Of a DNA stretch of 64,000 bases, positions 4,301 through 48,269 are shown piece by piece (position 1 is the stretch's first letter; each line of letters opens with the position of its first letter). Source of the stretch: Psococerastis gibbosa (taxonomy: Eukaryota > Arthropoda > Insecta > Psocodea > Psocidae). The DNA lies in the NCBI GenBank assembly GCA_963971405.1, contig OZ020490.1:32203464-32267463 (forward strand), given 5' to 3'. A model generated the notes under the pieces. It made no database searches. It worked only from the letters and a program-made list of their open reading frames with translations, and was not told the DNA's origin. A program made the translations under genes and the position numbers.

Positions 4301-7300
4301 CAGCTTTTTGTGGGAGCCCCCCACGGCCATGGCCCTCCTGCCCAGCGGCGTAGCCAAGGGGGGGGGGGGTCAGTGGGGTCCGGACCCCCCTCCAAAATTT
4401 AGCAAAATAGCAATTTTTTATTTAGATATTTATCTAAAAAACATTCGCTGGGGAGACCCCGGTCCCCCTTTTTCCAGTTTTGTAAATAAAGTTATCGTCT
4501 GCAAAATTAGTTTTTTTTCAGGCCTAACTTTCACCACCCCATTCAAAAACCTATCGTAAGCGGGTAAACTTTATGAAAACTAGACCCCCCAAAAAAAATC
4601 TGGCTACGCCACTGCTCCTGGTCCCATAACCAAACCCGGCACTGAATAACTGCAATCAAGGAGGCGGGCAGCGGCAAGCAAGGACGACGGGATAGATAGA
4701 TGGAGTTAGAGATAGATATAGATAGAAAGAAGATGATGATAGATAGATATAGTGAGTGATATGTAGATAGATAGATAGATGGATAAGATAGTAGTGTAAG
4801 TAAGTAGTTAAGAAGTTAGCGCGATGATGCACGGTGGGTGCGGTGCGGTGCATGGAAGCCGCGTACGCGAACGTATTGCCACAAAAAAGTATTAGGCAGT
4901 TATAAATACTAGCAAGACACAAAGTCTACAAACAACACACACTAAAATTATCGATCGAAATGGTTTCAAGCTGATATTTTGTGTCTTTATACCTCCTAAT
5001 TTTATACTACGCTAGTTTCGTTTCTCTCCGGCGAATTCGACGCCAACGAAAAAACATCACGAATCAGACGCCGCGGCCCGCCGCGTCGCCGCCGCTTTTT
5101 TCCCTCTCCACACTGCGCTTTGAAATGATATTTAAATGTATGCAATAAGTTTAGCGTAATAGTTTGTATGTCTAATTATATTTTTTATTTTATTTTTATT
5201 TTTTAGTTTTAGGGCAGTGAAGAAAATTGTTTGTTGTGCGGCCTTCCAATTATTGTGCATAAACTGTTTTTGTTTTATTTTGTATGTTCAATACACGTTC
5301 AGTCATTCAACTAAGTAATAATTTGTAATTGTTAATTAATGTGTGGGTATGTTCGTGTTTGTCCTCTATGTCCGTCCCGTCTGACCCTCTGGCTGCTTTC
5401 CTAATTATATGTTAGTTAGTGAGGGCTAAAATTTTCGATTTCGGGATTTCAGCAGCACACACTTTGAGGTCCCAAAAAAGTGGTTATCTTGAACCACAGC
5501 CGCAAACCTGTTGGAACTGATTTTGAGGTAAACAATTTTGCACCGCAATAAATTGCTGGCTTTTTCTCATATTATATATATTTTATTACACTCAACAACA
5601 TGATAAACTCGATATAAATGCGTTAAAGAATAGTGTTCTTCAGTCCCCATGGCCCAGGGTAAATAAATGGCGCCCAGAGAAAGTATGCACATTTCATCAA
5701 GTCCAAAGCGAGAGGAGACTAATGTATCAAAGTTAAAAATTGGGATAATCCAGAAAATTAATAAAGTCTCAAAACAATATTGGATTGGCCACATGAAGTA
5801 GAAAAATAGTTTTAGTCATAATGCAGAACTTACTGACATACTGAAATTATAATTTTTGGACAATAATAATAATAAAAAGTGTATTTTTTCTTAATTTGTT
5901 TTACCTAATAGTAGAAGAGAGTTGAAGTGTCCTCTCATGCCAGCAGCGTGCGAGGGTAGCATTGACGGATCTACGGGGTGGGGGGTAATGAGTAAATTCA
6001 TATGATAGTAAAAAAAGTTTAAAAAATTGAATAAAACTCCCAATTTCAACAAAAAAGTTACCTTTTTAACTTACAAACAACTTGTGAATCTCTCCCCCTA
6101 AATTTTTAAATTTTCCACTGGATCCTCTCTTGAGGGAAGCACAAAGAACTCAACACTCGACAAAATTCCGTCGTGCGTTCAAAATACCATTAAAAAATTT
6201 TAATTTTCCTCTCCCCAAAAATATTTCTGGATACGCCCTGCTGAGTGCTATTTGTTTAGAAAACAAAATTTTGAACGCTTTGCCAAAACAGAGCATGAGC
6301 AGAAAAAAATCTGTATGTAAATGACCTACGACCTAAATACCACACAAGTGTACCTTACGTTAAAAACATGATACCAACTGCCAGAGGCTATGTGTTTGTT
6401 GCTAAATACTACCATTGTTCAGGTACATCTTACTTACATAGTCCAGTGATAGCAAGGCCGTAGCAGGATTTTTTTCCGGGGGGTGAGGGGGGGTTTCAGA
6501 AATTTCATTGGTATTATAGTGGTTTTTATTTTTCCTCTCAAAATCCAATTTTATGTACAGTATCAATACATTTCATTTCGGGGGGGGGGGGGGGGGGGGG
6601 CAACGAAGCCAAACGAGTAGACAATTGATATTAATTCGGCTGTCATATTAAAGCATACAAAAACCGAACTACTCTAAACTTTATTGTTGAACATACTGGG
6701 TTATTGAGCAATAAAGAGACCTCAAAGACGTTTTTTTTTTTTTTCTTTTTCTTTTTAAAAGAAGATTAATAGCATACAAACAATTTAATGAATGTATCCG
6801 ATTGACCTCTTCAGTCGCCTCTGTAAGTTAGTACCCGTGTTGAGTTACGACACGTCTCCGATCGCATGGCGTGTAAAGACTCGCACAATTGCAGGCACGT
6901 TACCACCTAGCCATCGATATTTAATTAAGTATATCTGCCACCTGTTGGCAGCTCAACGCGCACTTTATAATTAACTTTACCCTTTACCTCTATTACAAGA
7001 TTGACAGCTACACAATTCAATGTTGACATTAATTACATTCAGATGGACTTTCAGTTAGCTGTGGCCGTTTTATTAACTCAAAATTATTAATTAACTTCTA
7101 TTTTTGTGGGCCCTACCCACCAAGAATAGATAATTTATCCCCAAAATTTAGCCACTCCTAAAATTCGCTGCCCCTAAAATAGCCGCCCTAGGCGCGGACG
7201 TAGACTGTTAATTCAGGAATACATCACTGTATGATCTACAAGTGTGTAGGCCTACTGTTCATGTCAAGAACATAATTTCAACTAATAAGTGATACTTAAG

Positions 7301-13645: not shown

Positions 13646-14104
13646 CTTAGGGAAATCGAAATGCAGTGAATACCCCTATTATAACTTAATTTAGAATAGA
13701 TAAGTTAAGTATCTACTTAATAGCCTCCTTAAAACAAAAATCTCATCATTTTATAATGCACAAATGAAGAAAATATGACAAGTGGAATACACACACGCCT
13801 TTTAGTGGATTGCGATTGAAGAAATTAAATTCCGAGGAGATTCCGAGGGAATTCCTGTAAAATTCCATCAATTCCGTAGAGACAACGGGAAGTCATAATG
13901 AACAGGAGCACATAAAAATAAGAGGCTCACGTCTGGCCATGGACATGGTAATGATTTTATAAAACCGAAAGGCAAATTCCTACTACCTCCTGCTCTCATG
14001 TTTTGCTAATACAACATTTCTCAATCGAAGACGACGACGTCGACGCGGCGCAACATCGGCCCTCGACTGACCGGCCCCGGAATTTCTTAGAAAAGTCAGG
14101 AAAT

Positions 14105-14870: not shown

Positions 14871-15402
14871 GTTCGTTTTTACCGCACCTCAATGTTTAAT
14901 TTTAATTTTTATATTAATGGGGAATAATTAAATAATTATAATAATAGATAATTATCGTTATTGTTCTGGGTCCTCCTCGGATTAATTAGCGGGGGTTTTG
15001 CAAAGGCGGATCCAGGGGGGGGGGGGCGGACAGGGGTTGAACAGTATTGTCAATATCACAATTTAAAGAATTCTTAAATTTACTGTTCATTAATTTTAAA
15101 CAATTCGTTCGTTCCGTTCGTTCATTCGTGTTCGTTCGTTTTGGCGTCTGTGGTGGGTGGGCGTGTGCGGCGGAGATGTCGTGCAGCAGTCATAAGTAGC
15201 AGGAGAATATAAAAGAAAGAGGCCTTCACTGGCGTCGGTGAACAACAATTCAACAAAATTCGAAATTCACTCATTTGATACCTCCTGTACTTTTAAATTC
15301 TTGGTAGAACATTTCCCAATCTGAGAAGCAACCAACCCAACCAATCAATTTTTATTTATTTGAACGATGCCTACACGTACTTACTTACTTACTGCTTGCA
15401 TG
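14871..15402. other. Non-coding stretch with MITE left end
   Basis: A solitary left terminus (AGGCGGATCCAGG plus G run) is at 15004-15028, and a TTCGTTCG microsatellite is near 15106-15140. No gene seen. Confidence 0.4.
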
Positions 15403-16412: not shown

Positions 16413-16955
16413 TGAGAATCTCACTATGATTTATACACCACCCTTAGTCCCTTACATGTATAATATGATTGTATGATCTTGAGTCGGGACAAATTGAGCC
16501 CGTAGGTCCCCCTAATTACTGTATGTTTAATACGGCCAAAGATCTAGACTAGACGTGTTACCTATTAGCTCCCGATTTTATTTTATTTTTAGCAGTAAAA
16601 GTTAAAGTTTCTGTTCGAAATTTCTCCAAAGTGTTCCGTGTAGTTTCCTTTACCGATATACGGTGTGATTTTGTGATTACTAATTTGGAACTATAGTTAA
16701 AAGTAAAAAACAGTTGTGAAAATTGAGATATTTCGGTAATCAGCTGAGTTTGACAGATTCAAACAAGTCGTGCGCAGCATAAGAAGACCACTTCAATACA
16801 ATTAGGACGCACTGTAAGTCGCCTTCTTCTTACACTTAGCACAGTGCAGCACATAAACTTAGACAAGTTGCTTTTCCTTCTGACCAGCTGGTTTTGACAC
16901 TTGAGCTATCCTGTACACCTGTTTCTAACACGATTCTTAGTGATTTGTTTGCAAA

Positions 16956-17900
16956 ATGAATTGCTCAAGGTGCAAGGAACTGGTTAGGGAGGAGGACTGT
17001 CCAACCTGCGTGGCGTGTAAGGGAATATATCACTTTGATTGCTCCATCCAGGAGACAGCTTGGAAAAAGTACCGTAAACAGAGAAAAGCAGAATGGAAGT
17101 GCGCACGGTGCCGCGAAGCTTCTGGAACAACCGTTGGGGACTCTGAGAATGACGATAAAGATAGAAGAGAGAATAACGAAGAAGATTTGGAAAACGTGAC
17201 TGCGGGCAAAGTGTACCAGTTATTTCAACTAATAAGAAAAGACATGCAAAGAAACCATGACGAGACCAGTAAAAAACTAATGGATCTGGAAAAAAGCTAC
17301 TCCTTCCTCTCAGATAAATATGATGAACTTCATAAGAAACTAAGCGAGATTACGAACTTGGAATCGAAGATAACAAAACTAGAAGCTGAGAAAGAGAGAC
17401 ACAACAACCAGATATTTCAAATGCATAGCAGGCTTCTCCATCTCGAGCAGTATAGTAGAAAACAAAATATAGAAATCAGGGAAGTGAAACATACCGCAGG
17501 AGAAAATGTAGAAAATATCGTACTTAAAGTAGCGCAACAACTAAATGTACCCCTAACCAGCAATGGCATCGAAGCAGCCCATCGACTCAAGGCGGCCCCG
17601 GGGAAAATACCCCCTATCATCGCCCGACTGACGAGCAGAAAGACAAGGGACCAGCTACTAAGCGCAAAAAATCAAACAATTACAAACAAGGAAATCACCG
17701 GTGCCAACAATGGAGGGAAAATATACGTCGGAGAGAACCTCTGCCCATTTTACCGCAACCTACTATGGGAAACGAAACAAAAAGCTAAGGACATGTCTTA
17801 TAAGTTTGTGTGGTGGAAGGACGCAGTATTGGTCAGAAAATCAGAAAATTGCAATGTAATAAAAATTAATTGTCTAGATGATCTGGAAAAATTGAAATAA
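16956..17900 (+). CDS. LINE ORF1: PHD finger and coiled-coil protein
   Basis: 314 intact residues. Residues 3-53 form a PHD/treble-clef zinc finger: CSRC, CPTCVACKGIYHFDC, then WKCARC. Residues 90-165 are a heptad-rich coiled coil (LEKSYSFL, LESKITKLEAEKERH, RLLHLEQYSRKQNIEIREV). Residues 165-310 form a basic domain resembling the RRM-like/C-terminal part of LINE ORF1 nucleic-acid chaperones (GIEAAHRL, PPIIARLTSRKTRD, IYVGENL). It probably packages the element RNA. ORF2 starts 41 bp downstream. The intact frame suggests fairly recent insertion. Confidence 0.85.
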   Translation: MNCSRCKELVREEDCPTCVACKGIYHFDCSIQETAWKKYRKQRKAEWKCARCREASGTTVGDSENDDKDRRENNEEDLENVTAGKVYQLFQLIRKDMQRNHDETSKKLMDLEKSYSFLSDKYDELHKKLSEITNLESKITKLEAEKERHNNQIFQMHSRLLHLEQYSRKQNIEIREVKHTAGENVENIVLKVAQQLNVPLTSNGIEAAHRLKAAPGKIPPIIARLTSRKTRDQLLSAKNQTITNKEITGANNGGKIYVGENLCPFYRNLLWETKQKAKDMSYKFVWWKDAVLVRKSENCNVIKINCLDDLEKLK

Positions 17901-17941
17901 ATAAATGAATAAACACCTTTAACCTTGAACTATATCATAAA

Positions 17942-20846
17942 ATGATGCATGATGAGGACGATGAGATATTAAATATAAACCAAATAAACTCAATAGTCAT
18001 TGAAAATTGTCGCCAACTATCCCGAAATATAATAAAAAATGGAAATCTGTACATACTCCATATGAACATACGATCCATTAGTCACAATTTGGATGAATTT
18101 CTTATTTTTCTGCAGAGCCTACCTGTCGTGATTGATATAATTGTGTTAACTGAAGCTTTTATAAATGAAATTAGCCCTGCCTTCAGCCTAGATGGGTATG
18201 ACTTCTTCGCTAAGGGTGGTTCTCTAACACGCAATGAGGGGGTCGTAATATTTTGTAAATCCACCCACAAAGCCTCAGTAGTTGATATTAAAATAACAGA
18301 ATGCACTTCACTATTACTTGAATTGAAACCCCAAAAGGGGGCGAAGTCCCTGTCAGTTCTGGGCATCTACAGAACACCCTCTATTAAAAATACAGAAAAT
18401 TTTATTAATGATCTTGACATGTGCTTACATATGCGCAAAAATCAATTAGGACTAGGCCCTATTTTAGCAGGAGACATAAACATCGACGTGTTAGACAAAG
18501 AGGGGGATGATTATCAAAATATGCTTAGCGGCCATGGCTACGTCCAGTGTATAAATAACTACACCAGAGTTACCGATGTAAGTCAATCATGCATTGACCA
18601 TATTTATATCCCTGAAAACTATTCCACCACCGACATACAATCCTTTGTTATTCAAACATCAATAACTGACCACTATACTCAACTGTTATCCCTACCCATG
18701 CCTTCCCACTATTCAAAAATTGAAAATAAGTTAGGGTGCAAGTTAAAAATAAATAAAATTGATTATAATGCCTTAAATCGGTCCTTAGAACAGGAAAGAT
18801 GGGATAGTGTATATTTAAATAACGACGGCAATGCAACATACAACAATTTCTTACATATCTTCAAGAAACAAATACAAAATAATACTAAGCAGTTCGAAGT
18901 TAGGCCCAACAACAAAACAAAAAAGTTGAAACCATGGATAACAACTGAAATCGTTGAAGCAATACGACATCGTGATAAATTGCATAAAAATAGTAAGAAA
19001 CGACCCCATGACCTCATATTAAAATCTCATGCTAAATCATTCTCGGCCCAAGTTAAAACGCAAATTAAAATAATAAAGTCCACATATTACCAAAACAAAT
19101 TACACGATGCAGGACATAATTTGAGAAAAAAATGGGAAATAGTAAATGAAATAACTGGAGGTACGAAGAAACAAAACATTAAAGAAACTAACATCTCTTC
19201 CAAAGCATTTAACGAATACTTTTTAAAAGTAGGCGCGAACCTTGCCCGTGAAATACCCCATGACCCAGCAAGTCTGAACATTCGCCTAGCAGCAATCCCA
19301 TCTAATCCATATACACTGTTCCTAACCCCTACAACCCCACAAGAAATAAGTACAATAATATCGAATTTAAAAAATTATTCTGCCCCCGGTCATGACAATA
19401 TTACAAACTATACCCTTAAGTCCGTCAAACCCCATATAGCGGAACCGTTAACTCATGCCATCAATGCATCTTTGTCGACCTGTACGTTTCCCGATAGCCT
19501 AAAGCTAGCAATAGTCACTCCAATATTCAAGGACAATAGCCCAGATGACCCTGCAAACTATAGGCCAATATCAGTACTACCTGCTAACAGTAAAATCTAT
19601 GAAAAAGTCCTATATACCTGACTAAGCGATTTTGCCGAAAAACATAAGCTTATTTCTTCCCAGCAATTTGGATTCCAAAAAAACAAGGGAACAACGGAAG
19701 CAATATGTGACCTAATAAATGAATTAAGTGATATTTCTAACAAGAAACAATACAGTCTTTGCATCCTAAATGACTTAAAAAAAGGTTTTGACACTATTTC
19801 CCACAGTATACTACTTAAAAAAATGGAGAAACTAGGGCTCAGAGGGCAAGTCCACACTTTGCTAACCAGTTACCTGACTAATCGAAAACAAAAAACAAAA
19901 ACGTTACCTAGTTCTGACAAATGCATTTGTTTTAGCGATGAAGATACCGTTACGTATGGCATACCCCAAGGCACGGTACTTGGACCATTTTGCTTCAATT
20001 TAATCTTAAATGATTTATTAACCTTAAAACTAAGTAGCAAAATAAATGCATTTGCGGATGATACGATACTAATATGCAGAGGCTCCACAAGAGCCGAGCT
20101 ATATGAGTCTGCAAACAATGATCTGAAAATTGTAAAATCATGGATGAATGACAATTTACTTACTCTAAACTTAAAAAAAAACGTATTATATAGAGTTCAC
20201 TAATTCACAAACCAACATACAAACTGACAACTACCGAATTGAGGGAATCCAAAGAGTAGATAGCGCAAAATATCTTGGTTTGATAATAGACAAAAAACTA
20301 AACTGGCAGGAACAAATTAATACCCTTATATTGAAACTTAGAAAATCTATTTACAAATTCGTCCAAGTTAGGAATATAGTTGATGAACACTTACTGAGAG
20401 CCATATACTTTGCTTTAATACAGTCACACTTACAATATGGGATTATAGCATGGGGGGCTTCATATAAAAATGAACTTGAACGGCTAATTAAAATTCAAAA
20501 GAAAATCCTTAAAATTATGTACAAAAAGCCTAAATTATTCCCCACTGAAGAGCTTTTTCATATTGCCAAAGTCCCAACCATCAATAAAATATTTACCAAA
20601 CAATCTCTAATACAGTTATACAAAAATAAGCTTTTAGGCCTGCATCCCGAAGTCTCCCACGAACATGGCACAAGATATAAAGAGAGAAAACCGCTACTGC
20701 ACGAAAAACCAAGAACAAGTAAAACTAAAAATACAGCGCAATACAAGGCACTCTCTATCTATAATGATCTGCCCAGAAACTTGAAGGATGGTAAAAGCCT
20801 ACGAGTATTTATAACCAAAGCTTCCCAGCACTTGAATCTCTTTTAA
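17942..20846 (+). CDS. LINE ORF2: AP endonuclease and reverse transcriptase, two breaks
   Basis: Residues from about 40 form an AP-like endonuclease (LYILHMNIRSI, IIVLTEAFI, GDINIDVL, SCIDHIYI, SITDHYTQ). The RT follows, with PISVLPANSKIYEKVL, GIPQGTVLGP and the catalytic FADD box at about 20051-20062 (AFADDTILI). A C-terminal region ends at 20846. The frame is interrupted by TGA at 19619-19621, probably a decayed CGA, and by a one-base shift in the A run near 20171-20181, after which the frame 20205-20846 continues (SAKYLGLIIDKKLNW). The A-box motif reads LNDLKKGFD where most elements have an LDLSKAFD-like sequence. It is likely inactive but young. Confidence 0.85.
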
Positions 20847-21333: not shown

Positions 21334-21383
21334 GTTCCTCAATGTAACAAAAACATATTAGTGCGACATAAGCAAAAGAGGTT
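21334..21383 (+). promoter_or_regulatory. Bipartite PSE-like element upstream of 5S copy 1
   Basis: GTTCCTCAATG, 32 bp, then AGAGGTT. The spacer contains TATTAGTGCGACATAAGC, similar to the other 5S-linked copies. The 5S gene starts 71 bp after the element. Confidence 0.55.
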
Positions 21384-21454
21384 CCATTGGTGCAAAGCTG
21401 GGAGTGACAGGGAGCGATATTATGTATTGTAGCTTCAACATTACACCAGCTAAT

Positions 21455-21573
21455 GTCAACGACCATACCATGTTGAACACACCGGTTCTCGTCCGATCAC
21501 CGAAGTTAAGCAACATCGGGCGTGGTTAGTACTTGGATGGGTGACCGCTTGGGAACACCACGTGTCGTTGGCT
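21455..21573 (+). rRNA. 5S ribosomal RNA, copy 1
   Basis: 119 nt, identical in sequence to copies 2 and 4. The internal control region is present (AAGTTAAGCAACATCGGGCG, GTACTTGGATGGGTGACC). Transcribed by RNA polymerase III with TFIIIA. Only three T residues follow directly (GGCTTTATAC), with a T5 run 12 bases later, so termination may be less efficient than in the other copies. Confidence 0.95.
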
Positions 21574-21929
21574 TTATACAATGTTTTTGCATATTTTTTT
21601 GTTGTAGTTCTTGTTAAATTTAATTTTAGGTCAAATTTTATTTATGAATTGGATTTACTATAATTTTTAGACTTAATCAAAGGGGAAGTTAATTATTCTT
21701 TGTTTTATTTATTTAATTTTTTATGTATGACTGGCTGACGGGAAGACTTCATTATTAAATCAGTTTGAGTTAACCTTACCTGTGTCCATTCGAGTGTCAG
21801 TCATTTAGCATTATGCCCAATGTGCAACGTACTGTAGCTGGGGTTTGGGATTGTCCACTAGTGAAATTTATTTGAATGTTTGACGATCGAAGCTCGTCAA
21901 TTATCATCGATATCATGTGTGAGAGTCAT

Positions 21930-22555
21930 GGCCGTTCCCAGGGGGGTGGTCCAAGGGGTTCGGACCCCCCTCCCCGAAATAAAAGGGCTTTACACAAATT
22001 TAATTTTATATTTTAGGGACACAATTTGTCATTTTATGGAAACCTGTATCAGAGACGCCGAGTTTTAAAAATTCTGGGGGGGGGGGGACAAGAATTCCGC
22101 CGGTACTCTGGAAAGTATATAAAGAAAATGCATTGGTAAATGGTCACTTAAAATAACTATAATGCAGAAAATGTTGACCGACGTACTTTCGTAGCGCTCT
22201 TTCTATCAAATTATTGACTAAAACCTTTATATCAAGGTTTTTGCCTCTTCATTGCGAATGCTCGTGATTGCCATGGCATTAAGTCTCTGTGTCTACGCGT
22301 GAAACTATATAAATAAATGAACTGCATCACTAAGGACTCTTCGTTTCTGGGGGGCGCTGCCCCCCCAGAAACTAGTTTGTGGAGGCAAGATGGACCGCGC
22401 CCCCCCCCCCCCAAGTCGGCGTCCCTGACCTGTATGGTTTGAAGAATTGGAATACATTTGTTTCAGTTTGAACACTGGATAAAATTGACTTTCATTAATA
22501 AATTACGTTAAAAAAAATTGAAGCCCCCCCCCCCAACCAAAACCTGGGCTTGGCC
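21930..22555. mobile_element. Outer MITE of the CATGGCCG/CAAGGCC group, carrying a nested MITE
   Basis: The left end CATGGCCGTTCCCAGG plus G run is at 21930. The right end ACCTGGGCTTGGCCTT is at 22536-22555, with the same internal right arm as 2240-2333. The element at 22050-22427 is inserted between them. No clear outer target duplication. Confidence 0.45.
22050..22427. mobile_element. hAT-type MITE with perfect 8-bp target duplication
   Basis: Termini CAGAGACGCCGAG and GTCGGCGTCCCTG are flanked by ACCTGTAT on both sides (22042-22049, 22428-22435). A G run at 22077-22088 mirrors a C run at 22400-22412. Confidence 0.85.
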
Positions 22556-22747
22556 TTAAAACACATTAACTGCCAGTCAAATTATCAAAATTCAGGAAGA
22601 GCTCAACGTCCGACATTTTTGGCGGACAGTATTTTTTTCGTAGGAGACCGCGTATACGTCACTAAAAGGTTGCTTCCACCAATTTTGTTGGATATTACAG
22701 TGTTTAGCTTACATTATCTAATTATAGAATACAGGTCGATATGAAAG

Positions 22748-22959
22748 CAATAGCGGATCCACGGGCTGAGGGGGGGGGGTCTGGGGTCATGAACCCCCCC
22801 CCCCCCCTAAATGAGTAAATTCATAGTAAATTTATAAGATACCTAGTATATAAATGTATAAAAAAATTGATTAAAACTCAACTTTTCAACAGAAAAATTA
22901 CCTTTTAAACTTACAAAAAATTTGTGACCCCCCTAAATATTCGGCTGGATCCGCCCTTG
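22748..22959. mobile_element. hAT-type MITE, GCGGATCC family
   Basis: Termini CAATAGCGGATCCACGG and GGCTGGATCCGCCCTTG. Flanks are TATGAAAG and TATGAAAA (7 of 8). G and C runs occupy the inner left end. Confidence 0.8.
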
Positions 22960-22967
22960 TATGAAAA

Positions 22968-24640
22968 GCCGAAAGGGTATACTTCCAAACGTTTCGACTA
23001 CATCTGCGGTCGACATTTTGTGCCCGGCTGTAGTTAGGATGTTTTTCCAGCGGGAGGGGGAAAAATCCTGAAAATATAATAGAAAAATTGTGGGGTTTTA
23101 CGCATTTTGACAGCAGTAAAGCTTGGAATTTTTAGACAAAGACACATTGATATATATTATTGCCAACAAGGGGGGTCAATCCCCGGGGGATAAAAAATAA
23201 TAGTATAGGCGAGGAATAATGGCAATGACAAATGACATCACAACTACAAACAACATCGACCGTGATTGGGGCCCCAATGAGCGGAGCGGTTTCGCGGTTC
23301 GCCAAACATAGAAATATATTAACTGGAATGGCAGGAGCCCTAAAATAAGCAGAGGCGGACGCAGCAACCGACACTGCGGGCAATTGCCCCTTTTGGCTCT
23401 AAAATACAAGAGTTAACTGCACTCAAAATGCGTAAAACCCCAATGTTTCAGCCCTATTTTTCAAAAAAATTTACACAGTGGAGACCCCCGGGCCCCCCTT
23501 CATATCCTCCGAACCCTCTGGCTCATGCGCAAAGGACACTAAGGTCATTAATTTAAAAGCTGCGTACGTCCATGAGATATGAGAACGGTTTTCCCCATTT
23601 TATAGACTTTTATGAAAATCGATGGAGGGGCGCCAAATTATACATCGCCCCCTTAGAAAACCTATCGTTACGCCACTGCCAAGTGCCTCCCCCTTTTATG
23701 AGGTCTCGAGACCACCTCTGACACAACGAACAAAAACAAACAAACAAAAAAACGGTGTTAGTAGTGCGCGGATGAGCGCAGCGGTTGCGTCGTCGTTTAT
23801 TGAGAAAATGTTGTATCAGTATGTAATAAATGATAAGAGGTGAATGTGTGTATTTTCTTCTTTGTCCCAATCCCCAGAGCAGGAGAATTAATTGCTTACT
23901 TATTCAAACCTTCACCTGTTATTTCATCCAGATCATTATGAAGCTCTACCCTGCGGAGTCAGTCAGTAGTGGACTAATAAGAAAATAGGAAAGGAACATG
24001 GCTGGCCGGGGCATTCATTCTCCAAGGTTCGTTCCCTTCATAATACTGTAATTATTATGAATTCATACTACATACATAGTACACACAGTACATAATAAAT
24101 GTATTGTTCTTAATACATAATACGACACTCTCCCTTCATAATATAATACTCAACCAGCTCCAGCCCCAGAAGCCAAAGCAAAAATTGAGGCAGCAAGAAA
24201 GCAATCAGGAAAGACGCGGGAATTAAAGTGTTGAAACTGTTGTTTATTTCAACACACTAATGAGGTCACTTTAATGATTTCTTACAGGGGGGGGGGGGGT
24301 CTAAGTTAGCTCAGCTCTCACGCTATTGTTTTCCTAAAATTTGAATAGATTCTCTCCCCCTCCCCAATATTAATTAATTCATTACACTGCTCTCTCATTT
24401 TTCTTAACCGTTCCGTTCCGTACAGTATATTAATTAAAAATTATAGTATTACAATAAATACGAAGACCGAAGTTATTGCTTTCTTTATCATAAAGATAAC
24501 CGCAACTGCGGAATCCCATATTTTAAAATGATTCTGACTTGTAAGTAAGTAAGTAAGTAAGTGTAATTAATTAATAAATAATAACTAACTAAATTAAATA
24601 AACACTCATTTTTTTGCTCGGTCTCCACCCGCTTTGATCT
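22968..24640. other. Repeat-derived spacer between the LINE region and 5S copy 2
   Basis: Contains fragments of the G/C-tract MITE group (23340-23530, right end GTTACGCCACTG near 23668-23679) and the dispersed motif CATCTGCGGTCGACA (23000). There is a lone G run at 24288-24299 and a GTAA microsatellite at 24541-24560. I see no exon. Confidence 0.4.
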
Positions 24641-24645
24641 CAACT

Positions 24646-24695
24646 ATTCCACAATACACCAAGAACGTAATAGTGGAACATAAGCGAAGGAGGTT
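24646..24695 (+). promoter_or_regulatory. Bipartite PSE-like element upstream of 5S copy 2
   Basis: ATTCCACAATA, 32 bp, then GGAGGTT. The spacer AACGTAATAGTGGAACATAA is nearly identical to that of copy 5. Confidence 0.55.
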
Positions 24696-24754
24696 GCAAT
24701 AACCAGCTCAACAGAACAGAGCTTCCATATAGCCGCAGCTATACTACTTCTAAT

Positions 24755-24873
24755 GTCAACGACCATACCATGTTGAACACACCGGTTCTCGTCCGATCAC
24801 CGAAGTTAAGCAACATCGGGCGTGGTTAGTACTTGGATGGGTGACCGCTTGGGAACACCACGTGTCGTTGGCT
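24755..24873 (+). rRNA. 5S ribosomal RNA, copy 2
   Basis: Full-length, with intact internal promoter blocks. Followed by a T5 terminator (GGCTTTTTGA). The upstream 65 bp share AACAGAGCTT and TAGCCGCAGCTATACTAC with copy 5. Confidence 0.95.
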
Positions 24874-25013
24874 TTTTGATACTTTTTTATGTTTTTGCAC
24901 ATCAGTTCCATTTAAAAAAAATTTAATTTCAGCTTAAATGTTATTGCTTAATTTATGAATACAGTATGATCTTAGCTAATGGAACATACAATATAATATA
25001 TATTGTGTAACAT

Positions 25014-25390
25014 CAGGTGCGGATCTATGGGCCATAGCCCCACCCCCCATTCGGTGTAAAACCCTACTATTTCAGTCTTATTTTTCACACATTTTCTGCC
25101 GGGGGAGACCCCCGGGCCCCCCTCGTGCCCCATTGTATTAATTACCTATAACATAGTAAATTCATTAGATACCTAGTAAGAACATTTTTTTGAGTAAAAC
25201 TCAAAGTTTCAAAAATTTACAAATAGTTCTGCCCCCCCCCCTGAAGTTTCGGCTGGATCCGCCCTTGATAGAACCCTTATTGCTCTAAAAATGCGTAAAA
25301 CCCCATTATTTCAGCCCTTTTTTTTTCAAAAAAAAATTCATAATATCTTACTATTAATTCCCTCCTTGGTCTCGTTCTCATCCGCGCCTG
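25014..25390. mobile_element. hAT-type MITE, GCGGATC family, mosaic
   Basis: Left CAGGTGCGGATCTATGG and right CTCATCCGCGCCTG, with flanks TGTAACAT and CATAACAT (6 of 8). An internal right end of the GGATCCGCCCTTG type at 25250-25267 shows that a second family member is embedded. Confidence 0.55.
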
Positions 25391-25548
25391 CATAACATCA
25401 TCAATGAAAGAAGATATTTATTGTATTTACTTACTGTTATTATGACTTATGAAAAAAAAGAGTGTAGTCGTGTGCTGCCACCTGTGGAGTAAACTGGAAA
25501 CTAATTTTTTCTCTCACAAAAGGTGGAGTCTCGGAGGCAACACCGTTC

Positions 25549-25599
25549 GTTCTTCACTGGAGCAAATTGATAATAGCAAAACAAAAGTCAAAGGAGGTT
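25549..25599 (+). promoter_or_regulatory. Bipartite element A, no 5S behind it
   Basis: GTTCTTCACTG, 33 bp, then GGAGGTT. A T9 run follows within 5 bases, which would act as a polymerase III terminator. First of three tandem elements. Confidence 0.5.
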
Positions 25600-25642
25600 A
25601 AATTTTTTTTTCGATGCGTTCTTGATTCCCGATCCCCACGCT

Positions 25643-25692
25643 GTTCTTCAATGAGACTATTCGCTATTAGTAAACTAAGACAATAGGAGGTT
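25643..25692 (+). promoter_or_regulatory. Bipartite element B, no 5S behind it
   Basis: GTTCTTCAATG, 32 bp, then GGAGGTT. Starts 94 bp after element A. The following sequence GCATTGCAGGCCACGTGATG is palindromic in part (GCCACGTGATGGC). Confidence 0.55.
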
Positions 25693-25766
25693 GCATTGCA
25701 GGCCACGTGATGGCCATTGCACATCATGGCGGCGACCACGTTGGAGGTCAATGACGTTGGGTTGCC

Positions 25767-25816
25767 GTTCTGTTGTAGGACAACTTTCAACCAGGCGAAC
25801 ATGTGAATAGGAGGTT
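25767..25816 (+). promoter_or_regulatory. Bipartite element C, no 5S behind it
   Basis: GTTCTGTTGTA, 32 bp, then GGAGGTT. The first box is the most diverged of the clear set. Starts 124 bp after element B. Confidence 0.45.
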
Positions 25817-26288
25817 GTATTGACCGAATTTTGATTTCTGTATGCGGCTGTGACCTCAAACAGTTATAACACTGATGCAAGTGAATGTGAAACACTAAGG
25901 TGGGTAGGTAGCTGGGATTAGATCCAGGGGGTGGGGCCGTGGGGGTAGGTGCATAAGTTCTATTAAATCGATTGATTTTCGCGGGGTTATTTGAATTTGT
26001 TTTAAAATATAAACATTGAGAATGTGTTTAGGATATCTAGTAAATTCCCTGCACTTTATTACTATGCGTAAATTCATCAAGGAAAACCAAATTCTATCTA
26101 GTGTTAACTCGTCAAACCTTTAGGGAGTCCCTCCCCCCCTGCTCCCCCTTGGAGGTGGGGGTCCGGAATCGTGATCGATCCCCATGGAACTTATTTAAAA
26201 TTAATCCATAAAACAACAAACAGGGGGGGGGGGTAAAATCATAAGATAGTAAAAAAATTAACGTAAATTTAAGATATAGGCTACCTAC

Positions 26289-26646
26289 CATGGCCGTCCG
26301 CAGGATGAAATATGAGATGGGTCAAGTGCGAATGAAAAAAAATTGAAAATTCCACAGTTTTTTTTGTTAGGGGGGGGGCAGGTATGGGATAAAGTAATAT
26401 TATAAATAAAAAATCAATAATTACGATGAATCCTCCAATTGGGCAGTTTAAAAAGTTTTGCTGTAGTTTTCGCGTGTTTTTGTTTAAAAGTTTAGAAGAG
26501 TTAATTTTTTTTAAATTTCTTGTTGTTTATTTAAAAAAAAAAAAACATTCATAGAAATTATGTTTTGTACCTAATTAGTACCATTTTTTCCGGGTCCATC
26601 GAGGTGGGTCAGATGACCCATCTCCCCATAGCTGTGGACGGCCATG
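26289..26646. mobile_element. hAT-type MITE, CATGGCCGTCC family
   Basis: Termini CATGGCCGTCCGCAGG and GCTGTGGACGGCCATG. Flanks are CTACCTAC and CTACCTAT (7 of 8). Confidence 0.8.
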
Positions 26647-26712
26647 CTACCTATATATACCTCTTGTGACCTCCTTACATTTTCCGCTGTATCCGCCCTT
26701 GCTCCTTCAGTC

Positions 26713-26961
26713 CAGGCACGCAGCCAGGGAGGGGGCTTTGGGGGCTGAAGCCCCTCCCGAAATGTAAAAAAAGGGGGGGGAAATTATTTTTTTAGTTTAT
26801 TTATATTTGTTCTCGCTCGATCCAGTGTATATACAGTAGATTCGATAGTGCAAGATACTTCCGCAGATTACGGAAGACTTGACCCGCCGGGTATTCCATA
26901 CCCCCCCCCCAACCCCCTGGTAGTTAGCCCCTCCCGAAATAAAATCCTGACTACGTGCTTG
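26713..26961. mobile_element. hAT-type MITE with perfect 8-bp target duplication
   Basis: Termini CAGGCACGCAGCCAGG and CCTGACTACGTGCTTG are flanked by CTTCAGTC on both sides (26705-26712, 26962-26969). G and C runs are mirrored inside the ends. Confidence 0.85.
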
Positions 26962-27139
26962 CTTCAGTCCATCCAATCCTGACTATCTGCGAATAAATAA
27001 TAGATTTATTTTCAAAAGCTTCGGAATCCACTGCCTCAACACGACACTTCAGCGATGGAATGGTGTACAGATAGAGGACAGGCACTGTATTTCATAAATA
27101 ACAAAACCACATGATGTAAAATAAATAAAATTATAAAGT

Positions 27140-30100
27140 TTATTGCCTCCCTTGTTCTAAAAAAGCTTGAGAATTTCTTCTTGTAAAAAAGAAGGGCGCT
27201 TCTTCTGTCGGACACAGGAATCTCTTCATAATGGGTTCCCAACCTCTTGTCTTGTTCCCGACTGGTTCCCACATGTTGTTCCATAACGCGTTGGCAACTG
27301 GAAGAAAAAGAAATATTTAATCCTATACAGGACTTGATAATACTAAAACTACATTAAAGAAAAAGATGGAAATTGAAAAAACTGCGATAAATGAAAAAAG
27401 GAAGTATGTAAATGCCAACGACACGTGGTGTTCCCAAGTGGTCACCCATCCAAGTACTAACCACGCCCGATGTTGCTTAACTTCGGTGACCTGACGAGAA
27501 CCGGTGTGTTAAAAATGGTATGGTCGTTGAAAATGGTGTCTGTTTATTTTCTGTCTATTTGAAGCTACATAAGATAAAAAAATAAACATAAATATATCTA
27601 CGAGCAAACAATATGAATACAATAAAATCATTAAAAAACCAAAGACAAAGGGGCGTCATTTGGGGATTGAAAAATAATCTATACAGTAACTTGTAACTTC
27701 ATGTTAAAAATAAATTATTATTAAGAGGATATACTATGTAGAAAATGAGCACCCCAAAATTTGTTGTTTTTATTGACATTTTATTTAATTAACAAAGCAG
27801 GTTATTTGGCTCATGTAAGTTGTAGAAGACTACTTCTGCCATGCATGATATAGCAGGAAATATTAAATTTTTGGTAACTTAGTACTGTCAAAAAAACCAC
27901 TGGTGACTAAAATTTCTCGTAAAATGGAATTTATGGAAAGACTAGAAAGCCGAAAAATAAAAATACCCAATGACATTAGCCAAATTTTATATAACTTGCT
28001 AAGTTAATGAAAAAAAAAGAAAAGTATTTAATTTTAGGGTGCCAATTTTCTACGTAGCATACATATCATATCCTCTTAATGAGCGCACTAAATCAGGGGT
28101 TTCCAAACTTTTTTGTCCGTGGACCACGAGATTATTTTCCGTGGACCCTCATGGCTGTGATAGAAAATTCATTAAATTCTAGGACCAAGATCAAGTAGCT
28201 TGTGCCAACAATTACGTGCTAATATTTGATTAAATGTTTAGAGCTGGTACCGGGCGGAATTTGTAGTTCAGTGCCAAACTTATTGTATTTTATTTCAAAT
28301 TTCCAATAACTAACTCAGCTGTTTTATTTTCTTATTTCATACTTTGTTTGGCCCGTGGACCACAGGTTGGGAACCGCTACACCAAATAAAGAGATAAGAA
28401 GTGAAAAAAAGCCTATAAAAAAAACACTTTTTATTTAGTATGTTGCTTTTATAATAATAATATTAATAATAATAATAATAATAATAGATTAGGTAGGAGG
28501 AGGTAGCAAGTAGTAAATCGCTGGCTGGCTCCTCGCCTTGCCTGCCTGCTCCTTCCTTCCTCTACTTGTCACGTTGTTCCTCAATTTACCGAGAACATAG
28601 TAGTGTATCATAACCGAAGGAGGTTACAGCAGAGCCGGGAGCGCGTAATATGTAGCAGCTACATTGTAACCTATTGAAATAGCCTGAGCATTAGCTCACC
28701 TGTTGTCAACGACCATACCATGTTGAACACACCGGTTCTCGTCCGATCACCGAAGTTAAGCAACATCGGGCGTGGTTAGTACTTGGATGGGTGACCGCTT
28801 GGGAACACCACGTGTCGTTGGCTTTTTGACACTTTTTTCATTTTATATTGTTTTTAAAATTAGACAGAATTTAAAATTCTTTCTTATAACCCAGTTTCAC
28901 TTTTTTTTTTTTCTTTGACCATTTTACAATTTTATTTTTAATTGTAAAATTTCAGGTGCGTGGGTGTGATATATAGATTTTTGGCAGAAAATTGTAATTA
29001 ATATCTACAGTAAATTAATTTATTCATGCAGAATCCCATATTTTAAAAGGATTTTTATGAATAAGTATGTGTAAAGAAAGAGAGCTATAGAAATAAAAAT
29101 TAATTTCATTCATTTTTTTTTTTGCTCAGCTTTCAACTATTCCACAATACACCAAGAACGTAATAGTGGAATATAAGCGAAGGAGGTTACAATAAACAGT
29201 TCAACAGAACAGAGCTGGGAATAGGGAGCAAGCATGTACGAATATAGCCGCAGCTATACTACATCTAATATCAACGACCATACCATGTTGAACACACCGG
29301 TTCTCGTCCGATCACCGAAGTTAAGCAACATCGGGCGTGGTTAGTACTTGGATGGGTGACCGCTTGGGAACACCACGTGTCGTTGGCTTTTTTTTACAAT
29401 TTTATATAGTTCTTCATATAACACACAATTTTGAATTAATTTTTTTTCTTACGGTCCAATTCAATAAACCATCTATTTTATATTTGAGATTGGATTATCG
29501 TTCAATTTTGACGCTTTATATAAAGTAAGCTAATACTTTGGAGAAATGACAGTAAAGGTGCAAACGAACTCAACAGAGATTTAAAATTTGAAGGACGTGT
29601 GGTATAGAGCCATAGGTAGAGATAGAAATGACTAAATAATTTCTAAACAAATCAGGCCTGAGTATTTTGACTAGATATTAATTTATTCCTCGTTTTACAG
29701 TCCCAAGAATATGAAATTGGTCTCTTTATTTCATTTTTAGCTCCTTTAATTAATAATAAAAAACATATTTCATTGTAAATTTCCATTTTCAATCAACCCG
29801 TGTGAGTTTTTAAAGGTAGGCTGGCTTTATTTCTTCTGCGGATTTTTTTTCTTGAAAATATGTCCATATCTGTGAAAATTGCGGCTGTGAAACAACTGTG
29901 AACACTTTAAATACATTATATTAGGCCTACAAAATATTAAGAAATCTCTGCCGTATGTATATTTCACATTCATATTTTTGGTCCGTATACTGGATCCACT
30001 TTACCACCATTATTTTGACTTCTAAACTCGTACTTACTGAGAGCGTGGCTTCTCTGACTGAAGTGGAAGCAGTCCGGGGCAAACAGATTGAGATCTGGGG

Positions 30101-33100
30101 CCTCCCCAAAAATTGTGTTCAGGTTATCAGGGGACTCCACCCCCAGAAAGAACGGCTGTAGAACAACTGTGAATTCGTCCGAATCGAATTTACTCATGGC
30201 GGACTATACAGTTGCACGTGAAAAAGAACCACACGATAGATTAATCAACAAAGGAAATAAATAATATTTATTACACCACTATTAGTTATTAATAATTACT
30301 ATAATAATAACTTATTATTCACAGGCTCAAGGCTGTATGTATAGCTCAACCGCTGCTGCATTAACTATTGTACTAACTAACTAACTATGATAATTTGAAT
30401 GTCAAAAAATAAATATCATCAAATTAATGAATGTAATTATGGGGAAGAAGTTGAAAAAGAGGAAAAAAGAACTAACTAGGCAACTAACGTTTTTAATTGC
30501 ATCTACTTACTTCACTTAGTACTCACTTATTAGCATATAATAACTTAAAATCATCTGTCTCTCTCATATCCATCCATCCATCAATCCATACAAGCAATCA
30601 ATCAATCAATCAATCATCACCATTTCCACCACCACATCCATCATCGATCGCCGCGAGTGGGCTTCTGGAGAGAGCACGTTGTTCCCGAATGGAGTAATGG
30701 CGTATTAGAATAGTATAAAAATAGGAGGTTACAAGGTGTGGAAAATTCAACAACATGGATGCCAAAAAAGCACGTCATTCTCCACTACCGAGAGAATTCA
30801 TCCCAGGCTGTTATGAAATGTCATCTAATATGACTGTGACAAAGTTCTTAAAAAGAGTGCAGATAGATCTAAACTAAGTATACAACACAGTTTACACAAA
30901 ATTAATTACGTCGTGACTTAACCGTATAACGAATGGCCCCAACACCCAAGTTTTCAAAACGTTTAAAAGATTCCACCAGACATCTATAACATTAGGAGGT
31001 CAACTCAAAGAAGTCGTTTGCGAAATTTGCTTGCCCAGCCAGTTTACACCGCCATTTTGTTCTTCAATCAGGAAAAAATGGAGCAGTGATGTATAAAATT
31101 AGGAGGTTAGATTAGTGTGTTTGAATTCTCGGTCGCGAGGCGGGCAAGGTTACGCGCCAGGCCGACATTTTATTCATTGATCAATATACAAGGCCGTGGC
31201 CTTAGCAAGGACAAGGACGGGTATTAGGGTTGCATAACTTGTCATTTTTCGGGTTAAATTTTTGTGTTGGGTTTGCAAGCGTTTTGGATGTTCCCAAAGG
31301 CGGCTGGCTATTCGGCCATATTCCACTTGTCAATATTCCGTCATTTAGGCCTATGCATAAAAAATGAGTATATTAAAACTTATTTATAACTTAATTCACA
31401 ATAGAGCCACTTACTATGTTCTTTTCAACTTCCCAGTAGCCATGCAAGATTCTCTCGACAGACTGGGCTTTTGCTTTTTCCACACCCCCGAACAAGCAAG
31501 AGCAGAGAACCAGCTGCTTGGCGTAGCACACAAACGGTACATTCTTTAAGTTCCGCAACTGTAAAATGTCTGAAAAAGAAATAAGAATAAGAAAATTTCA
31601 ATTTTTGCCGTTGTTGCTTGGGCAGACTGTTCTTTTGCTATTCCAACTTACTGAAATCTATAATTATTATTAAACAAATGGTTAGATGGACTTAAATTGC
31701 AAGGCTGTAGCAAGGATTTTATTTGGGGGAGGCTGTAGGTCTATATTTGACCCTATTTAATGTAAATTGTTTTCTTGAGAACTCAATTGTGTAGTAAGTA
31801 GCGTATGCTCTGGAGGTTGTTGTGCTACTCGTATATGAAAGCATAGGCAAATCAAACGTCAATTCATTGGCGGATTTAGCTTTGGTGCGGTCGTGCGGAC
31901 ACAGGCAGATAATATTTTGTAGATATATGGACTAAATCATAATGCTATAATTACGACGGTTTAGATTGTATATAAATAATTGCGAACACCAATCGATTTT
32001 TCAAACATTTGCACCTGTCAGCTGTCCGCCGTTTAGATCTATTGTCATGAACAGTATATACTTACTTGGTATATGTATAAGATTGACAAAAGTCCTTGGC
32101 AATTTGGCCTTGAGATAGGTAAGGGTGGCTTCCAGCATCCGTCTGTGGCCATCTGGAGAATCTTTCTCACCCTCCACGAAACAGAACTCATTACAGATGT
32201 CATTTCCTCCTATCAAAATGTTTACCACCTGCAAATATAGAACCACTCGTAATTGCCTGGTAAAGGTTTAAGGGAAAGCTATTCCTAATTTCCTTTTAAT
32301 ATATGGTCCAGAACCAGTAAACAACTCTGGGCCAGAACAGTTGTTTGTTGGGTCAAGCCCCACACTTGCTACATTTTCTGGCCATGCTTCGGAGGGCATG
32401 TAAAGCAGACGGTCCCGGGTCTTCCTAGTTGAGTATAAGAGAGGGCTTTATAGGCATAACTCGGCTAGGCTGACTAATAGAACAATAAGTCAATATTTAT
32501 TTATTTATTTAGAACAATGGTCGGCAACCTTTTTGTATAAGTGAACCATACTCCTTGTTTTCGGCAACTGAGACCTTTCCAAAACCGCCGACGATAGCAG
32601 AACGATTTCCAGCACAAATTGAGCTTGGGCGGTATGTTTGTGTGTTGTGTCTCTGTGGTTAGGCGCCCATTCCATTGACCGGCTAGGGCTATTTCCAAAA
32701 ACAGTGACGTGGTAGCAGACATTTAAGACTTAGGTTGCGATTCCACCGATCTCGCATTGCAGAATGCAAATGACATTGACGGAAATTAGAATTTTTCTTT
32801 TTATAGAAATCTATTAAAATGTTTGTACTTAACATATCCCATGACGCCATTTTTTAATTTTAGTTTGTTTGTTTGTGATTTTACTGTATGATCATTGATC
32901 AATTTTAACTAGGGCATAGAGGAAAATAAACATTTCCGTCAATTCTGCAATGCGAGGTCGGTGGAAACGCCACCTAAGTCTTGAATGTCTGCTACCACGT
33001 CACCGTTATTGGAAATAGCCCTAACCGGTCAATGGAATGGGCATCTAAACAAGAAGTAGCAGAAATCACAATATTCATGTCAAGCAGTTATGATAAAAAA

Positions 33101-36100
33101 AGTACAAAACATAGTCCCTTCGTAAGCTGAATATGAATATGAGTGTGTTTTATAGTGTTGTTTTTGAGAGTCCTTTTTTAGGGCTCTATATTAGACAGGT
33201 ATTGTCATCCGCCATATTGTATCCATTGTAAGTCTGGTGTATAAGCCTAGCATTAAGTGTTTACTTATTTATTTTTAGAAATTTATCGTAGTTTATTTAT
33301 TATTATTTAAAAAACGTGCTACCAAATAGGTTTTTTGACTTTTTTGAAAAGTTTTCAATAAAAAATGACTAAAACGTGTATTCGTTTTTTTTCTTCTTCA
33401 ATATTTTACTTTTCTTACAATACTTACCATATAGGAAATTAGGAAATATGGGATTCAACATGGCGGATGACAATACCCGGGTATATAGTGCCTTACTTTT
33501 TTTTCTAGTATACTCGAATATTTTTTCTAGTTTTGAAATGGCGAAAGATTAAATAAAAAATAAATAGGTATTGACTTTTTGTTCTATTACTAAGCCAACC
33601 TAGCGGAGTTAAGGCTATAAAGCCCTCTCTTACACTCAACTAGGAAGGCTTTAAATGCCCTCCGGAGCATGGTCAGAAAATTTAGTAAGTGTAGGACACA
33701 AAGCAACAACCTTTCAAGTGAAAGTCAGAGTCTGTACCATTAATCTACTGGATCTTAGGGACAATCAGTCCTGACGAAGATTATAGTTTTGAACTTCACT
33801 AGGCCTTCTAGGGTTAAGATTTCTGAAATTCAACTTTGCACAAAAAACTCAATTTGTTTCTTAGTTAATAAAATTATTATTATTTTATAAATATTTTTAC
33901 CTTCCAGTCTTGAGTGAAATTGATGTAAGGATCACGACGGATCCTGGATACTAAGTCACGAGCCTGTTTTATCAAGGCATCATCCAACGCACCATTCTCT
34001 GCCAAGTTATAACCAGCTAGGGGGCTGGTAGGGTCCGGAGCACCCAAGGCATAGCCTTGCAGTTTCGGTGAGAATTCTTTGAGAATGTTTGGCAGCGTCA
34101 GAAATTTTCGCCAGGTACCTTGTCCCCCTGAAAACATAATATAATCTACAGTCTCTGCCAAGTTGTAACCAGCTAGGGGGCTGTTAGGGTCCGGAGCACC
34201 CAAGGCATAGCCTTGCAGTTTCGGTGAGAATTCCTTGAGAATGTTTGGCAGCGTCAGAAATTTTCGCCAGGTACCTTGTCCCCCTAGAAAACATAATGAA
34301 ATCTACAATCTTCTTCTTTAAATGCCTCTTCTATCGAAGATTGGCGGTGATCATGGCAATTTAGACATTGGAGACTGCTGCTCTGAAAAGGGAAGTCGTG
34401 CTCTTAATAAACCACTGCCGCAAGTTTATCAAACAGGATTCTTTATGTACGCTAATTGTGATTAGCAATTAATGGTATTAAAGGTAATTTTATTAATAAA
34501 AAACGCAATAATGAATGCTGCGCCTACAAATTTTAAGTTATACTATATATTTTTCACTCCTACCATGAGAATGATTATAACCGTGATTCAGTCTTTCGGA
34601 CCTCCAGTCCCCCAATAAATTTTTGTATGTAAACCTGTATGATGTGAAGAATTTATTCATTAATTCATTAATATATTACTTTTAACATTTTTTTGGACCC
34701 CCCCCCTCGAAATCAAAACCTGGCCACGGCCTTGCCCCCAGGGCCTGCTTATTGAGTCTCCAAGGGAGGCCCTACTACCCTGATGTCCTGTCTAAGGGGA
34801 TGAACCTATCTTTACACTTTACCAAGCCTGCAGTGTACTGCCCATGGTGGACACACCCCTGTAATTGAGCCTGGTTTTTTCAGTCCTCACTGTAGGCCAT
34901 TGCTCCATTAGCCATGCTTCGGAGGGCGTGTACAGCAGGCGGTCCTGGGTCTTCCTAGTTGAGTATAAGAGAGGGCTTTGTAGCCCTAACTCCGCTAGGT
35001 AGGCTTAGTAATAGAACAAAAAAGTCCATATTTATTTATTTATTTATTCAGTCCACGAGGGAGGCTGCCACCCTGATGTCCAGCTGTCTAAGCCCTACTG
35101 CCCTAAGGCGATGAAACTGTATCTTTGCGCTCTACCATCAAATACAGATGCATACCTCCCATGGCGGACACACCCCTGTAGTTGAGCCTGGTCTCCTCCT
35201 CACTGTACGCCATTGCACCATTGGCGGCGGTGATACTGTCCCCGAGAGAAGCCACCACCTTGATGTCCTGCGGTCTCAGGCGATGAACACTGCTGGCGGG
35301 CTCATGGGTTTTACTAACGCCGCTGCATGGGAACGGCACCAGCTCAGGAATTGGTTCTTGAGTTCTCTAAAGCAGGAATATACGCACTCAGTATAAATTA
35401 ACAGTCCTAACACTGTGCAAGGCCGTAGCCAAGGGCGGGGGGGGGGGGGGGGTCATGGGGTTCAACCCCCCCCCCCCCCCGAAATGAAATGACTTGATAC
35501 TACAATAGATAGAATCGGATTTTGAGAGGAAAAATAAATATCACTATGTAACATCCAATGAATTCCCCAATTCCCCCCCATTCCCCCCCCCCCCGAAAAC
35601 ATCCTGGCTACGGCCTGGACACTGTGGCATACCGCGAATGGTGGCGAACAGGTTCATGGTGGTGAATCGGGTTAAAACCGAAGGTAGCACTCAACAGCTA
35701 AAGCTAACTAAAAGTAATTTCAACTGAAACGCCCTCCCCCTCCTCCTCTCAGAATTCCTGGGTGCGACCTTGGGCTTCTGAAGATACACGGATTTTTTAT
35801 CTATCTGTATTCTCTTGATTTGGCGAAGTCAGTCCAGTGGGACTTTTGGCCGCTCTAACAATAGTCCTCCACCTTTCGCGGTCTTTAGCCACTGGTCACC
35901 AGGCTGCGGTGTCGAGGTCATCCTGGAATGGTCTGCCCATCTATGTTTTGCTCTTCCTCTAGGTCATCCTCCACGGTGGGTGGTTCCTCAAACAGCTTTG
36001 GTCCGTCTACTATATCGGGCATACGGACATACATCTACCTGCAATAGTATTTACTAATTTTTTTCATCATTAACAATGGCAGGGAACGCGGCTTTCAAGA

Positions 36101-47819: not shown

Positions 47820-48269
47820 TTTCTGTAAATCAATAAATATATAAACCAATCAATCAATTAATCAACCATTGTCCGTGATCCACCAAGGTGAGATAGATGG
47901 TGTCTTAACTACATTTTTTTTTTTTTTTTGCGCTACATGGACGCGCTTAATAAGACCATTGACCAATCTCCTTTGACTTCTTCTGCCATCGATATCGTTG
48001 CAGTTGTTGCATTTATAAGTTGCCTCATGTGCTAATCTACTGCGTTCACTTGATACTATTCAGTTCATCGATATTATTCACTGTTCAATGCCACTAATAA
48101 CATCATCTTCTGAACTAGATGGCGTCCAATGATTCCATCACCTGGGTTGCCTACTTATGCTCTCCATTCTCGCTCTGTTCACAGAATCTTCTTTGTCTAG
48201 GATCTCATCTATCTTTGCCTTAAATTATCAATCGAAGGCGATGGTTATTAGTTCGAGAGCTATGGAATG

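Follow-up and report, generated by a model that had tools for sequence, protein, structure and literature searches.

A directional 27-base core upstream of 5S rRNA genes in a half-megabase domain of the Psococerastis gibbosa genome: a candidate oriented control site

In insects, the known upstream elements external to the 5S rRNA gene are situated within about 40 bp of its start. The element described here, from a 64,000-nucleotide stretch of the genome of Psococerastis gibbosa (Insecta; Psocodea), likewise precedes 5S genes and shares their strand, but lies 59-242 bp away from them and also occurs where there is no 5S gene. This stretch, the window, corresponds to positions 32203464-32267463 of contig OZ020490.1 (C15 below) in an assembly of 409 Mb and 68 contigs. 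As judged from an alignment of the window sites, the best-conserved unit of the element is a directional core of 27 bases, approximately TATTAGNANAACATRANNATAGGAGGT, which is larger than the GGAGGTT word it overlaps and for which we know of no counterpart in small nuclear RNA (snRNA) promoters. No description of such an element was found in the literature searched by topic, the motif letters themselves not having been searched.

Three described systems invite comparison. In Drosophila snRNA promoters, proximal sequence element A (PSEA) is combined with a TATA box or with proximal sequence element B (PSEB) (PMC4227766); as in the window there are two short boxes at a rigid distance, and the first box of our element (box one) looks like part of PSEA. 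The U6 type comprises 21 + 12 bp, and the window site at 30681 comes close to this, its TATA word starting 33 bp from where box one begins. Unlike these promoters, our core is not found in front of any U1, U2, U5 or U6 gene examined, its distance to 5S genes varies, and it forms facing pairs. The nematode Ruby motif (PMC6436959, PMC11822377) similarly recurs within domains before unrelated downstream sequence, but differs from the core in sequence and length, and strand pairing and 5S association set the present element further apart; a further account gives more than 15,000 PIWI-interacting RNA (piRNA) loci for C. elegans (PMC7917550), against tens of clear core sites here. Finally, Kipferl guides Rhino to Drosophila piRNA clusters and prefers GRGGN (PMC9531945). 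The core shares with these sites a G-rich end and occurrence both in a domain and in transposon sequence, whereas in P. gibbosa 27 bp are conserved, oriented and tied to 5S genes.

On the plus strand of the window, the sequence-only reading that preceded this work had placed nine sites at which box one is followed, at a fixed spacing, by GGAGGTT, and all nine are present where it put them. The spacing is 32 bp, or 33 bp at 25549, and the second box is GGAGGTT at eight sites and AGAGGTT at the ninth, at 21377. Four sites precede plus-strand 5S genes that start 66, 78, 86 or 88 bp past the first G of GGAGGTT: the element at 21334..21383 (box one GTTCCTCAATG, 32 bp, AGAGGTT) is followed after 78 bp by the gene at 21455..21573, that at 24646..24695 (ATTCCACAATA, 32 bp, GGAGGTT) after 66 bp by 24755..24873, that at 28576..28625 after 86 bp by 28705..28823 (each of these three genes scoring 116.8 bits with Rfam), and that at 29139..29188 after 88 bp by 29270..29388 (113.5 bits); the flank at 28576 is related to that at 21334, and the flank at 29139 to that at 24646. 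The other five are lone sites with no 5S gene. Three of them are tandem, at steps of 94 and 124 bp, namely 25549..25599 (spacing 33), 25643..25692 (the top score of the two-box model, 47.5 bits) and 25767..25816 (with a strong core); the remaining two are 30681..30730, whose core contains TATAAAAATA, and 31059..31108, whose core contains TATAAAATTA. With a two-box matrix the scores of the nine range from 32.8 to 47.5 bits, while nothing in 15 Markov-shuffled windows exceeds 17.8 bits, the matrix having been trained on the same nine. When each site is left out in turn, no other local position matches box one better than the exact offset in eight of the nine, and box one is unsupported at 25767.

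No longer repeat has been copied to give rise to these sites, as the sequence-only reading had also maintained, because flank identity among unrelated window sites averages 0.25 upstream and 0.28 downstream, which equals chance, against 0.62 in the core, and because two stretches with lone sites, 25530-25900 and 30640-31180, have no genomic match other than themselves. A copied repeat is accordingly rejected as the source of the window sites. The picture of two boxes around a spacer holds in so far as the boxes exist, but the spacer is itself conserved, so that the best-conserved unit is one continuous core extending from -21 to +5 relative to the first G of GGAGGT. In the nine-site alignment GGAGGTT is immediately preceded by an A/T-rich stretch, and an AG 16-17 bp ahead of it is invariant. 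Box one is poorly represented away from the nine sites: among 55 other core sites none has a 6-bit match to it between -48 and -38. By mean box-one score at these sites, -42 takes first place and -43 third among the offsets, without strong matches, and by eye a TTCT-type word lies near the box-one position at the minus-strand sites 13990 and 15285 and at one further site (L031).

The sites, spacing and 5S positions of the sequence-only reading stand, but outside the window its strict two-box pattern, allowing a spacing of 30-34, is not enriched: the genome has 6 matches and the reversed control 5, and half of the six fall inside the window. It is the core alone that is enriched. With at most one mismatch the core has 97 genome matches against 16 for the reversed pattern, and with at most two mismatches 567 against 342. 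As many as 26 of the 97 lie between C15:31,925,743 and 32,437,109, a domain of 0.51 Mb in which about 0.12 would be expected if they were evenly spread. Across these 26 sites, columns above 0.6 bits are confined to -20 to +5, and weaker scattered ones (0.3-0.6 bits) include -51 to -37. Window sites contributed to the pattern with which the sites were gathered, and the conservation of the core is therefore partly built in; what carries information is that strong conservation stops at its edges. After merging three matches whose contexts are identical to others, 94 distinct contexts remained, of which, at limits of 60 bp and E 1e-6, 30 fall into one linked group around an old dispersed repeat of at least about 370 bp (repeat R), 25 into smaller groups, and 39 stand alone. 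A search of viral contigs with one pattern only found no core.

Within the domain the core is linked to 5S genes. We scored 47 5S candidates, so that the 5S gene total is a lower bound; left out were three array copies, C1:26310771 (which has unknown letters) and those copies that closely follow another 5S, set aside as tandem, which include two of the triple at C15:32092190-32092603, and the first copy of each array may be missing. Upstream sequence could be read for the 27 non-tandem 5S units that remained, of which 14 belong to the C15 domain and 13 do not. A core of at least 6 bits lies on the same strand within 300 bp upstream in 13 of the 14 domain units against 2 of the 13 elsewhere, at 59-105 bp from the gene in ten domain units and at 174-242 bp in three. 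The only domain unit lacking an upstream core is a degenerate fifth copy in the window, found with Rfam at 27413..27531 on the minus strand. A matrix built from 50 sites outside 5S links and repeat R gave, at 8 bits, 12/14 in the domain and 2/13 elsewhere, with 0/240 and 1/360 control tiles positive (1/600 in total). The core thus keeps one side of the 5S gene, and its strand, more often than chance would give, at 12-13 of the 14 domain units. When the core is masked, the flanks of the 15 5S-linked sites sort into ten groups without detectable similarity between groups, nine of which have a domain member; the association thus arose or was kept many times. The earlier suggestion of an external 5S promoter is supported in so far as the element precedes 5S genes in the same orientation well outside the window.

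Two further kinds of 5S gene were encountered. Tandem 5S genes at C15:1.56, 4.6 and 5.05 Mb constitute a second sequence class, with a GCCAACGGCC start and no core in the copies examined. Dispersed 5S genes on four contigs (L035, L061, L062 and L064) have about 100-200 bp of common upstream sequence, 75-87% identical and without the core, and represent a second family of 5S genes, distinguished by an upstream region of its own.

A second regularity concerns the orientation of neighboring cores. At 12 of 63 sites outside repeat R a reverse core (at least 6 bits) occurs within 200 bp downstream, against 0.2 expected from shuffles, the first Gs of the facing partners being separated by 65, 65, 66, 67, 69, 69, 75, 77, 84, 103, 104 and 158 bp; the independent facing pairs number about 8 rather than 12, as two sites are mutual partners and two groups are paralogous. 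No site among the 63 has a back-to-back partner upstream within 200 bp, while same-orientation neighbors occur three times downstream and five times upstream; two sites at one locus (L085) are back-to-back about 360 bp apart, beyond the range of the scan. This rule is a sharp constraint that any mechanism must explain. The window itself contains two such pairs. In the first, separated by 69 bp, the left core (13901..13926 on the plus strand, first G 13921) was found with the core matrix and the right one (13985..14010 on the minus strand, first G 13990) with the two-box and core matrices and the genome pattern. In the second, separated by 67 bp, the left core (15198..15223, plus strand, first G 15218) was recovered by the core matrix and the genome pattern, and the weaker right core (15280..15305, minus strand, first G 15285; 7.5 bits) by the two-box and core matrices. 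Two more cores in the window are lone: one at 4991..5016 on the minus strand (first G 4996), an exact match to the genome pattern also detected with both matrices, and one at 30975..31000 on the plus strand (first G 30995), which has GGAGGTC and no box one, and scores 14.5 bits with the two-box matrix and 24.6 bits with the core matrix, for which it is a training site.

Of the explanations considered, we tentatively place first the one in which the element is an oriented control site of the upstream promoter or activator type. The strand-specific link to 5S genes, the long register and the TATA-like word favor a site that would act towards the GGAGGT side. In such a scheme a sequence-specific factor might read the approximately 27 bp as one long site, or about 50 bp at sites that include box one, and the TATA-like stretch before GGAGGT could help to place the transcription machinery; the action would be exerted on 5S genes and, at lone sites, on putative transcripts, and facing pairs would bind two copies of the factor. 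The core would then be an adaptation of the C15 domain and not a general 5S requirement, because tandem 5S array copies elsewhere lack it. One instance outside the 5S context fits the same direction: an exact core at C19:35287989-35288014 on the minus strand, 25/26 identical to a 5S-linked core, is followed after 214 bp by the ATG of a leucine-rich-repeat protein read in the same direction, the frame of which extends to the end of the locus and which is presumably Toll-like. If the core is indeed a control site, it would offer a handle on how one group of dispersed 5S genes is regulated apart from tandem arrays, and on how sequence marks a half-megabase domain.

Several observations weigh against this explanation. 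The core is absent before 11 of the 13 non-tandem 5S units elsewhere, including intact genes on other chromosomes, and from the examined copies of the three C15 arrays named above; because of this, 5S transcription does not need it. The varying distance to the 5S gene, 59-242 bp, misfits a core promoter, and two promoters firing at each other would make little sense of the facing pairs. Splice sites, poly(A) words, T-runs, reading frames and folding yield no clear signal of direction, the single association with a gene start could be due to chance, the core is present in a decayed dispersed repeat, and the pattern with which sites were collected was partly window-derived. The facing pairs and the varying distance suggest a protein-binding site, not necessarily a core promoter, with an architectural or silencing factor as the main rival to a control site. 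The more ambitious version of the control-site explanation, in which the domain would be organized by a promoter code of its own, with one factor acting through single cores and facing pairs on 5S genes and many short putative transcripts and with mobile repeats carrying the element too, strikes us as very doubtful; if true, it would provide an animal outside the nematodes with a domain of small RNA units on a dedicated element.

Rather less likely than a control site, in our estimate, is the binding site of a long zinc-finger protein, which would serve to mark or insulate a chromatin domain, or to silence transposable elements, and not as a promoter; it would work in a manner like that of Kipferl, though not necessarily as that system. 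The motif is long, interrupted and oriented, with a rigid register; moreover, six of the 12 facing distances fall at 65-69 bp, the cores are concentrated in one domain, and a mobile repeat family carries the core as well. The GRGGN preference of Kipferl (PMC9531945) recalls the GAGGT with which the core ends, but GRGGN is so short and common that the resemblance is weak, and a link to 5S genes that is specific for strand and side is unexpected of a plain architectural site.

We consider it unlikely that the core is a relic of mobile elements, that is, part of an old transposon promoter or a transposase-binding sequence, with which 5S copies had spread. Repeat R does carry two direct cores, 96 bp apart in one copy (L089), and a weaker reverse core, and several small repeat families carry the core too (by eye, partly grouped). 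Repeat R was seen at loci L105, L092 and L161-L172. When a 420-base copy served as query, 512 candidates were obtained, and the 40 of them that were scored yielded 51 matches, a count that includes the query and some pieces of one copy; apart from the query they are 67-92% identical, and 15 of the 51 start at the same query base, where the repeat has a sharp, T-rich end. Homology reaching past the motif into other copies was found for about 30 other sites in the genome, and the repeat R group accounts for about one third of the genome core count but for none of the nine window sites. In 12 copies chosen without regard to the motif, agreement with the consensus is 0.90 and 0.88 in the core columns against 0.88 in the rest, so that the core columns are hardly better conserved and the copies look neutral, while the window sites keep the core amid chance flanks. 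The two single-copy lone regions and the unrelated flanks of the window sites also oppose the idea, as do the 39 of 94 contexts that match no other and the ten flank groups of the 5S-linked sites. Repeat R also holds sequence that we take to resemble a CTCF site. A miniature transposon with terminal repeats was rejected, since no target duplications were seen around the facing pairs (by eye, uncounted).

A further possibility, to which we give little credence, is a divergent promoter read outward, in which box one would be the start region and starts would stand back-to-back about 150 bp apart, with the 5S gene or the second core serving the other direction. It would account for partners that face each other and never stand back-to-back within 200 bp, and box one read outward has an initiator-like ATTG. 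Furthermore, CpG peaks just outside the core, at 55.6 per kb from -90 to -51 against 27-29 further out, but on the inner side too it reaches 39-43 per kb in three of the five bins from +30 to +229. Across 31 sites there is no clear asymmetry of splice or poly(A) signals: strict splice-donor words number 0 sense versus 2 antisense outward and 1 versus 1 inward, and poly(A) words 75 versus 90 outward and 59 versus 74 inward; T-runs of at least 5 number 126 versus 103 and 123 versus 85, respectively. The lack of a strong box one at the 55 other core sites also speaks against outward reading, as do a 5S group in which the 5S gene is on the outer side of the second core, and a TATA-like word that reads inward.

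The proposal of the sequence-only reading itself, an snRNA-type promoter bound by SNAPc and driving small RNAs like nematode piRNA minigenes, fares worst and appears highly improbable. A second box does stand at the fixed distance in eight of the nine window sites, box one is similar to ATTCTCAACTG within the PSEA probe used for Drosophila U6 (PMC4227766), the cores cluster in a domain as do the C. elegans piRNAs (PMC6436959), and the box-one mean score has the ranks at -42 and -43 given above, though without strong matches. However, no strong box one, and none of 6 bits near -43, occurs at the 55 other core sites, the strict two-box model is not in genome excess, and the analogy to the proximal sequence element (PSE) plus TATA fails, as the core is absent from the 120 bp upstream of all 23 snRNA genes examined (9 of 27 U1, 6 of 11 U2, 6 of 8 U5 and 2 of 6 U6 matches) on either strand, the best score there being -3.6 bits against about 20-45 at the sites. 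Box one likewise has no common position in these 23 regions. A PSE would stand 40-60 bp ahead of a defined start; the 5S starts lie 59-242 bp past the first G of GGAGGT. A Gibbs search for a shared element in 16 of the 23 gave 7.36 bits against 6.85-7.47 in shuffled sequence and did not recover the genome's own PSE, and therefore only identity with the same element is ruled out and not a diverged SNAPc site. The snRNA-promoter interpretation is thus unsupported.

The companion claim, that the sites represent a set of small RNA genes, found no backing either: the lone sites have no Rfam match, folding over 29 sites gives mean z-scores of -0.1 and 0.2 in the two directions (with one site, L116, at -3.3) and hence no general fold signal, and there is no T-run terminator at a fixed position. 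At gathering score, Rfam returned only 5S and tRNA for the window and 20 core-bearing loci, and a permissive search of 25400-31400 added nothing beyond these at that score; matches to STnc540 and GcvB are below it and were taken for chance. A promoter of known small RNAs was rejected on the same results.

The window contains a few other features. A partial tRNA match (Rfam 37.6 bits) at 58811-58868 on the minus strand is not called by ARAGORN, and a minus-strand frame at 33880-34302 encodes an internally repeated peptide (GQGTWRKFLTLPNILKEF...) with no Pfam match. Exon-like frames occupy 46894-47849 on the minus strand, of which the one at 47304-47822 matches the N6-adenineMlase domain (PF10237); we take these to be exons of an EEF1AKMT1-like protein. 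At 16944-20846 on the plus strand lies a retrotransposon of the type without long terminal repeats (non-LTR), with several frames, the first of which contains a Baculo_FP_2nd domain and a later one a reverse transcriptase domain.

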